The notes beneath the pieces were generated by a model, which saw nothing but the letters and a program-made list of their open reading frames with translations, ran no database searches and was not told the DNA's origin. A stretch of DNA of 64,000 bases from Natrialbaceae archaeon AArc-T1-2 (GTDB lineage Archaea > Halobacteriota > Halobacteria > Halobacteriales > Natrialbaceae), in the NCBI RefSeq assembly GCF_030273315.1, contig NZ_CP127174.1:1860001-1924000 (forward strand), read 5' to 3'. A program made the translations under genes and the position numbers. Each line of letters starts with the position of its first letter. Within the stretch, counting starts at the first letter, position 1. Shown here in pieces: positions 13,838 through 50,610 of this stretch.

Positions 13838-13925
13838 CTAGTGGCGTTCAAAGCCTGAACTGATGGGTGAAACCGAGTGCGGTTGACCGGTTTCACTCAT
13901 CAGTCGACGCTTGGAACGGTACTAG
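13838..13925 (-). mobile_element. 88-bp palindromic repeat, copy A (inverted orientation)
   Basis: This is the exact reverse complement of copies B (42866-42953) and C (50523-50610). It begins and ends with CTAG. The 80-bp core has terminal inverted repeats of 34 bp that match at 27 positions, around a 12-nt centre. It lies between the DoxX-like gene stop (13950) and the methyltransferase start (13830). With no coding capacity and identical copies it looks like a MITE-like non-autonomous element. No transposase is present in the window. Confidence 0.85.
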
Positions 13926-41115: not shown

Positions 41116-41350
41116 CGGCTAGCCCTCACTAGGCAGGCACGACTGTCACGGTATCGAATATGTACTGCTTAGTTCCTGCTCTCGGAGCCGACTGCAAATC
41201 GATACGTCTACTGGAAGGACGGCGGACAGGTTCGAAACCACTACTGTCACGGTCACGGATCGATTCGACTGCGATTCGAGCACTATCGAACTCGTCCACG
41301 ACGCACGCGTCACTGCGGTCGACCGCACGATCCGGACGGTCGTTCGCATC

Positions 41351-41357
41351 GTTTAAG
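41351..41357 (+). promoter_or_regulatory. TATA-like box of proS
   Basis: GTTTAAG lies 25-31 nt before the ATG at 41382. It falls inside the longer open frame and shows that the upstream extension is not translated. Confidence 0.5.
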
Positions 41358-41381
41358 ACCGCGCTGGCTGTTGCTCGAGGT

Positions 41382-42869
41382 ATGAGCGACGAGAGTCAGG
41401 AACTCGGCATCACCGAGTCGAAGTCACATCGACCCGGCGAGTGGTACGCCGAAGTCGTCCAGAAGGCCGGACTTGCGGATTACGCCCCGATGGGTGGCTT
41501 CATCGTCACGAAACCCCGTGGGTACGCGCTGTGGGAGGCGATTCAGGACGCCTTAGACGGCTGGTTCAAGCAGACGGGCGTCCAGAACGCCTACTTCCCG
41601 ATGTTCATCCCCGAGTCGTTCCTCGAGCGGGAGAAAGACATCGTCGAGGGCTTCGACCCCGAGGTCGCGTGGGTGACCCAGGGCGGTCACGACGAACTCG
41701 AGGAACGTCTCGCGGTGCGGCCGACGAGCGAGTCGATCATCGCCCCGTTCATGGCCGACTGGACCCGCAGCCACCGTGACCTGCCCCTGCGGCTCAACCA
41801 GTGGTGTTCGGTCGTTCGGTGGGAAGCGACGGAGACGAAACCGTTCTTCCGGACGAAGGAGTTCATGTGGCAGGAAGGCCACACCGCCCACGCGACCGAC
41901 GAGGGTGCCTGGGAGGAGGTCTGGACCCGGCTGGACCAGTACGAACGCGTCTACGAGGACGTGCTCGCGATCCCGGTGCTGCGCGGGAAGAAACCCGAAC
42001 ACGACAAGTTCCCCGGCGCGAACACGACGACGACCGTCGAGGCGTTGATGCCCGACGGCAAGTCCGTCCAGGGCGCAACCAGCCACCACCTCGGTCAGAG
42101 CTTCGCCGAGGCGTTCGAGATCACCTACGTCGACGAGGACGAGAACGAACAGACGGCCTACACGACCTCGTGGGGGCTGTCCTGGCGGGCACTCGGCGCA
42201 CTCATCATGACTCACGCCGACGATCAGGGACTCGTGCTTCCCCCGACAGTCGCACCGACCCAGGTCGTCGTCGTTCCCATCTGGCAGGCAGACACGAAAG
42301 ACGAGGTCCTCGAGTACGCCGAGGGGATCGAAGCGGATCTCACAGACGCCGGCGTCCGGGTCGAACTCGACGACCGCGACGAGCGCAATCCTGGGTTCAA
42401 GTTCAACGAACACGAGTTGAACGGCGTTCCCCTCCGGATCGAGGTCGGCCCCAACGAGGTCACGGACGAGGAGGTCACGCTCGTCCACCGCCCCGACAAC
42501 GAAAACGTCGTCGCCGATCGGACGGGACTGGCCGAGACGGTCGACGAACAGCTCGAGACCGTCTACGAGAAACTCTACGAGGCGGCCGAACAGACCCTCG
42601 AAGAGAACGTCCGGACGGCAGACAGCGCCGAGGAGATCATGGGTACGATCGGGCGATACGGCGGCTACGTCGAGGTGCCGTGGTGTGGCGATCAGGCCTG
42701 TGAGGAAGCGATCAAAGAGAAAGTCGCCGCCGAGATCGTCATGCAACCGCTCGCAGACGACGGCGGGGCGTCTGAAGGAACGCCGAAAACGCCCGAAGAC
42801 GACGATGCGACGTGTACCGTCTGTGACGAGCCGGCGGACGAAATCGCGTACTTCGCCAAGACCTACTAG
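41382..42869 (+). CDS. proS: Prolyl-tRNA synthetase, archaeal type
   Basis: This 495-residue class II synthetase begins MSDESQELGITESKSHRPGE and has motif 1 (GFIVTKPRGYALWEAIQDAL), motif 2 (RWEATETKPFFRTKEFMWQEGH) and motif 3 (SWGLSWRALGAL). The anticodon-binding domain follows (VVVPIWQADTKDE). A C-terminal zinc-binding-like part has WCGDQACEEA and CTVCDEPADE and ends IAYFAKTY, as in archaeal/eukaryotic ProRS. The stop codon TAG (42867-42869) is part of the CTAG that begins copy B of the 88-bp repeat, so the repeat directly forms the 3' untranslated region. Confidence 0.95.
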   Translation: MSDESQELGITESKSHRPGEWYAEVVQKAGLADYAPMGGFIVTKPRGYALWEAIQDALDGWFKQTGVQNAYFPMFIPESFLEREKDIVEGFDPEVAWVTQGGHDELEERLAVRPTSESIIAPFMADWTRSHRDLPLRLNQWCSVVRWEATETKPFFRTKEFMWQEGHTAHATDEGAWEEVWTRLDQYERVYEDVLAIPVLRGKKPEHDKFPGANTTTTVEALMPDGKSVQGATSHHLGQSFAEAFEITYVDEDENEQTAYTTSWGLSWRALGALIMTHADDQGLVLPPTVAPTQVVVVPIWQADTKDEVLEYAEGIEADLTDAGVRVELDDRDERNPGFKFNEHELNGVPLRIEVGPNEVTDEEVTLVHRPDNENVVADRTGLAETVDEQLETVYEKLYEAAEQTLEENVRTADSAEEIMGTIGRYGGYVEVPWCGDQACEEAIKEKVAAEIVMQPLADDGGASEGTPKTPEDDDATCTVCDEPADEIAYFAKTY

Positions 42870-42953
42870 TACCGTTCCAAGCGTCGACTGATGAGTGAAA
42901 CCGGTCAACCGCACTCGGTTTCACCCATCAGTTCAGGCTTTGAACGCCACTAG
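42866..42953 (+). mobile_element. 88-bp palindromic repeat, copy B
   Basis: This copy is identical to copies A and C. It starts in the proS stop codon and its hairpin directly follows the coding region, so it will be transcribed as a long stem-loop (central stem 16 of 17 pairs, 12-nt loop). It may now act as a proS terminator or RNA stabiliser. Confidence 0.85.
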
Positions 42954-49592: not shown

Positions 49593-49731
49593 TGGGTACA
49601 CTGGGACTCGAACCCAGGGCCTCTCGGATGACCGGATCGCTGACCAAAGGCCCCGGGACGTGCCGCGCGGACTCACACCCCCGGCGATCCGATCTCGTTC
49701 CGAGCGTTCTACCGGACTGAACTACGTGCCC
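49593..49731 (-). tRNA. tRNA-like gene with about 70-nt insertion in the anticodon region (identity unresolved)
   Basis: On the minus strand the acceptor GGGCACG/TGTACCC (one C-A mismatch, one G-T), D arm GTTC-loop-GAAC, anticodon stem CTCGG/CCGAG and T arm CTGGG-TTCGAGT-CCCAG are all present, followed by discriminator A. Between the anticodon-stem halves are about 70 nt with an internal 8-bp helix (CGGATCGC/GCGATCCG), as in archaeal tRNA introns. I could not place a U33-anticodon or a standard bulge-helix-bulge motif, so this may be an intron-containing tRNA I misread or a disrupted pseudo-tRNA. Confidence 0.5.
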
Positions 49732-50522: not shown

Positions 50523-50610
50523 CTAGTACCGTTCCAAGCGTCGACTGATGAGTGAAACCGGTCAACCGCACTCGGTTTCACCCATCAGTTCAGGCTTTGA
50601 ACGCCACTAG
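50523..50610 (+). mobile_element. 88-bp palindromic repeat, copy C
   Basis: This copy is identical to copy B and to the reverse complement of copy A, with CTAG at both ends. It sits in the intergenic space between the divergent low-GC FKBP gene and a haloarchaeal hypothetical gene. Confidence 0.85.

Follow-up and report, generated by a model that had tools for sequence, protein, structure and literature searches.

The closest described case to the element analysed here is RUP, a 107-bp repeat unit of pneumococcus that is paired with IS630-Spn1 (PMC3049150). RUP, like the present element, is a palindromic MITE of small size and high copy number whose ends resemble those of an IS630-family IS; its movement in trans is presumed, and it has been reported in or near IS elements (PMC3049150). 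It differs in its bacterial host; the present element, for its part, targets CTAG or CTNAG and lacks a partner IS in its genome. A preference of IS630 for TA within CTAG is given in the title of Tenzen and Ohtsubo (1991), as cited in PMC2170065. IS630 of Shigella and ISY100 also insert into TA and duplicate it (PMC2170065), but both are autonomous IS elements. The present element has no coding capacity, and besides CTAG it uses CTNAG, where the duplication is 3 bp.

Among haloarchaea, the MITEs, PATEs, and SMRs of Haloquadratum walsbyi are likewise transposase-free repeats, and some of these MITEs move without an intact partner transposase, an earlier instance of a haloarchaeal MITE outlasting its enzyme (PMC3119063). 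In a comparison by description only, SMRs differ in having no target duplication and no relation to an IS, and PATEs in having no terminal inverted repeats (PMC3119063). MITEPsy1 of Pseudomonas syringae resembles the present element as a 100-bp MITE that targets CTAG or YTAA, but it is attributed to the IS5-type ISPsy2, makes a 4-bp duplication, and has different ends (PMC3189936).

The element described below is very probably a non-autonomous IS630/Tc1-mariner-type MITE. The family itself is new; the kind of element, an IS630-type MITE like pneumococcal RUP, is already known. The initial annotation of this DNA knew of no named element with this sequence, and we also found none in Rfam or in the literature, as far as these are searchable. 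We know of no sequence link between RUP and the element.

Copies in the window and the genome

In the window, the whole 64,000-nucleotide stretch of DNA that was analysed, three base-for-base identical 88-mers with unrelated flanks had been noticed, the first of them inverted, and all three are present. Each contains an 82-bp element with G..C termini, set in a CTAG target of which TA is duplicated: copy 1 at 13841–13922 (minus strand; CTAG at 13838–13841 and 13922–13925), copy 2 at 42869–42950 (plus strand; CTAG at 42866–42869 and 42950–42953), and copy 3 at 50526–50607 (plus strand; CTAG at 50523–50526 and 50607–50610). The TAG stop of a mechanically called ORF of 569 amino acids (41160–42869, plus strand) lies in the CTAG target of copy 2, and because this target is duplicated, the stop codon is preserved. 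In three relatives the aligned gene stops at this same position, and the element that fills the site here (42866–42953) is absent. The window also holds a tRNA match at 49593–49731 (minus strand) spanning 139 bases, a length that suggests an intron-containing tRNA gene.

The genome (3.36 Mb, three contigs) contains ∼16 copies of the element, all on the main chromosome. Seven identical 88-mers and 12 identical 80-bp cores are found; among the remaining copies, one has a single substitution, one a replaced left end, and one an inverted center, and one, which adjoins another copy, is old and diverged. About half of the copies in this genome adjoin gene ends; compared with the overall placement of CTAG sites, this is not significant (p = 0.08).

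Insertion and empty sites

A 1.45-kb IS with six or more copies in the same genome provides a direct comparison of filled and empty sites. At least four copies are empty (L388–L391 were examined), and two (L010 and L012, each at 404–1934) carry the element inside. The four empty copies read ..GCGTGGCG CTTAG AGCAACAG.. and the filled ones ..GCGTGGCG CTTAG-80 bp-CTTAG AGCAACAG.., a difference of exactly 85 bp with the target duplicated; filled and empty copies are otherwise 99.7–100% identical. The DNA outside the IS differs between L010 and L012, so the loaded IS itself moved afterwards. Another site (L005) is empty in the related genomes G014, over 176 ungapped columns across the rejoined target, and G026.

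The element is thus found in many copies at unrelated sites, with target duplications and with empty sites. The recent movement proposed in the initial annotation is supported by the 12 identical cores in unrelated flanks, the target duplications, and the precise empty sites that this genome itself contains. Neither outcome that the initial annotation named as a refutation was observed: relatives are without the element at every site with an alignable junction, and sequence variation of the ordinary intergenic kind is not seen among the copies. These data demonstrate that the element inserts cleanly into CTAG or CTNAG and that it has recently spread to ∼16 sites.

Target choice and duplication

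The CTAG reported at both ends of the repeat is present in the three window copies, but it is not a constant component of the element. Because some copies carry CTTAG, CTGAG, TTAG/CTAA, or other borders, CTAG is mainly the duplicated target. We examined the borders of 128 physical copies in this and related genomes, a sample that was gathered by likeness to the whole 88-mer, which may bias it slightly toward CTAG, and in which a few places may be counted twice. CTAG stands on both sides of 66 copies, 17 have the borders NTA[G..C]TAN, and 8, from seven places of which one is a tandem pair, have TNA[G..C]TNA; 3 have another 4-nt repeat, and the other 34 fit none of these, many being one change from CTAG. 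A TA target with a duplicated TA was found in 83 of the 128 copies, mostly within CTAG. The same variant target is also seen on both sides of a copy, as CTCAG/CTCAG and CTTAG/CTTAG.

The simplest reading, and the one we prefer, is an 82-bp element with G..C termini that duplicates TA and favors CTAG, with a minority of insertions at CTNAG in which three bases are duplicated. An 80-bp element with a 4–5-bp duplication was also considered; it better explains the CTAC/CTAC and GTAG/GTAG copies, which are best fitted by a 4-bp duplication, but not CTAG/CTAT, ATAG/CTAG, or TTAG/CTAA. For the IS630 family, a 3-bp target duplication is unusual, and it counts against the assignment. It is possible, though less likely than not, that the haloarchaeal IS630 clade behind the element has a relaxed target geometry, in which CT(N)AG is joined with a 2- or 3-bp stagger, and that the whole stem, including its fixed mismatches, is kept as a functional structure and not as two simple binding sites.

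Outside the elements, CTAG occurs 23 times in the 64 kb of the window, compared with 207 expected from base composition (∼nine times rarer), and target choice therefore directs insertions to few places. Head-to-tail or inverted pairs of elements with one common CTAG (or CTCAG) were observed at L108, L147, L255, and G006:C1:2258297, indicating that the element re-targets its own border.

Distribution in Natrialbaceae

The element pattern was found in 40 of 125 Natrialbaceae genomes and in 20 of 29 genera, with the highest load in G014 (192 places, ∼190 copies). When a stricter pattern was run against 84,980 species genomes, it yielded 88 stretches, all in Natrialbaceae genera or MAGs as judged by the names of these genera and MAGs. 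The exact 80-bp core had no match in the scan of named genomes, from which its own genome was possibly left out, and a search of viral contigs gave four matches, all of them one coding-like stretch without the element.

A 202-bp stretch (L048, 1331–1532) that was considered as a longer relative is better read as a copy of the element interrupted by another repeat. This repeat, which starts CGATAGTAACAACTG, seems to be inserted into element copies in two genomes (L048 1331–1532 and L137). G014 contains a second CTAG-flanked repeat of ∼102 bp, TACCRTCCCAAGCGTGGACCGACTAG..GACTTGGGACGGTA, at ∼30 places (L202, L108, L109); this is apparently a further MITE whose ends resemble those of the L189 IS630, and G014 has no cognate transposase.

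Candidate autonomous partners

Partners were sought in related genomes as element-like ends without the element behind them. This search yielded a 1.2-kb IS, which in L189 has the ends CTAG-TACCGTCCCAACCGTGGACAG.. and ..CTCGACGCTTGGGAAGCTA-CTAG and a pair of ORFs that overlap around CTAAAAAAACG and are read in different frames. Proteins of this type consist of a helix-turn-helix (HTH) part and a DDE_3 part and belong to the IS630 family (Pfam DDE_3, 1.7e-27; NCBIfam IS630, 3.5e-43); the two transposase frames (orfA and orfB) would be joined by frameshifting. A second type of IS in related genomes starts TGCACTTGCAAGCGTCGACTG, and in one copy of the element in the own genome (L014) the usual end is replaced by exactly this TGCACTTGCAAGCGTCGACTG. 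A third type starts TGCGGCTTCAGCCCTGAACTG, which is closer to the right end of the element.

The left end of the element is identical at 17–18 of 21 positions to the right ends of the IS in L189 and L200, both of which lie outside the selection by the search pattern, and identity of at least 17 of 21 to the left end was reached by 0 of 127,955 21-mers of the window. The left ends of the IS were retrieved with a pattern that came from the element, so part of their likeness is by construction. The right end of the element is less similar, the best IS end matching at 14 of 21 positions. The IS630 copies in L189, L187, and G137, the last being another 1.2-kb IS of the same clade, sit between CTAG and CTAG. 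As judged by sequence comparison, then, the 1.2-kb IS (IS630 family, orfA/orfB) of related haloarchaea lie at CTAG, and their ends resemble the element's outermost 21 bp, strongly for the left end and more weakly for the right. The initial annotation had suggested comparison with terminal repeats of IS elements in the same genome; IS630-family ends do match, but the matching IS are in related genomes and not in this one.

The genome itself yielded no cognate transposase and no longer elements with the same ends, and no cognate transposase was found in G014 with its ∼190 copies. Across the family, the cognate transposase is present in 29 of 125 genomes, and the element occurs in 18 of these 29 compared with 22 of the 96 without it (p = 0.0002, with kinship not controlled), a co-occurrence that is significant yet far from complete. 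Cognate transposases are present on many haloarchaeal plasmids, which therefore are a plausible source that can be lost; the phage records searched contained one distant transposase only.

With 12 identical copies in a genome that has no cognate IS630, and 22 genomes that carry the element without the cognate, one may ask whether the MITE was moved by a different transposase that is now resident and whose own IS has unlike ends. The genome does contain eight other IS630-family matches, two kinds of which are in near-identical copies, and DDE_1 transposases also occur. However, the ends of the resident IS630s (CTATAGTAGGCG.., ATACTGTCGG..) are unrelated to the element, as far as ends were examined; for three of the eight, on contig 2, the check covered the vicinity and gave no element-like ends. 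In addition, G006, G020, G036, and G057 bear the element yet have no DDE_3 matches. We consider a resident transposase unlikely.

The absence of a cognate IS630 from the genome today suggests instead that the transposase behind the burst was probably encoded on a plasmid, or on another replicon, since lost. In the mechanism that we propose for the MITE, an IS630 transposase supplied in trans by such a replicon would bind the two outer blocks of the element, which would then be excised and joined to the TA of CTAG; the conserved mismatches of the stem, described below, may distinguish the left from the right end for the enzyme.

Hairpin structure and its conservation

The MITE has a size of 80–82 bp, is noncoding, and has terminal inverted repeats with arms of 34 nt. 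The inverted-repeat layout that had been recognized is borne out: counting CTAG, two arms of 38 nt (82% complementary) enclose a 12-nt center. In copy 2, the left arm (42870–42903, plus strand) contains the IS630-end-like block TACCGTTCCAAGCGTCGACTG, and the right arm (42916–42949, minus strand), which reads TGGCGTTCAAAGCCTGAACTG inward, is asymmetric to the left at stem positions 14, 16, and 17. The single-strand fold of the element has −23.4 kcal/mol, compared with −8.2 ± 2.2 for dinucleotide shuffles (z = −6.9).

In 111 distinct cores, the two sides of the stem vary together: G-C (57 cores) or C-G (40) at position 28, A-T (58) or G-C (42) at position 29, and C-G (55) or T-A (33) at position 32. 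Compensatory changes preserve the stem of the element. The inner stem is 80% paired in 52 dereplicated cores, compared with at most 69% in 500 shuffles, in which kinship among cores was not controlled, and 29% when slid by one base. Mismatches also persist in the 111 cores: position 14 is G against G in 107, position 16 is C against C in 103, and position 17 remains mismatched as G against T or G. Because these mismatches are conserved, the element is not explained simply by drift toward perfect palindromes. In several genomes (L015, G112:C6:56370, and some G111 copies), the center of the hairpin has the opposite orientation to the asymmetric outer arms.

Conserved mismatches in a palindromic hairpin, with a tetranucleotide at the base, would also suit a REP-type hairpin moved single-stranded by an IS200/IS605-like (RAYT) tyrosine transposase. 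Transposition of IS200/IS605 makes no target duplication, and the duplications of the present element, with the same variant on both sides (CTCAG/CTCAG, CTTAG/CTTAG), largely refute such an origin; the exact empty site and the ends like those of DDE IS also argue against it, and we regard it as very improbable. Equally improbable is a conserved hairpin with a regulatory or RNA role whose copies arose by recombination and not by transposition. The compensatory changes in the stem and the position of about half of the copies beside gene ends would suit it, but Rfam gave no match, the gene-end placement is not significant, as noted above, the insertions with target duplication are exact both in an IS and at unrelated sites, and the empty sites argue against such an origin. 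Inserted copies may nevertheless have a secondary function. Least probable of all is a Haloquadratum-type small mobile repeat, which has comparable size (80–110 bp), inverted repeats, and insertion into other mobile elements (PMC3119063), since the target duplications and the ends related to a known IS family both contradict its definition by terminal repeats unrelated to transposons and no target duplication.

Significance

Reading the element as an IS630-type MITE accounts for an abundant, apparently unnamed repeat of one haloarchaeal family and links it to a transposase, with clean empty sites available within one genome. Its unusual features are a constant 80-bp core, a compensated stem, fixed internal mismatches, and duplications of 2 or 3 bp, and it offers a natural test for the strictness of the TA rule of IS630/Tc1-mariner elements. 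In this archaeon, a burst of MITE insertions seems to have outlived its enzyme.
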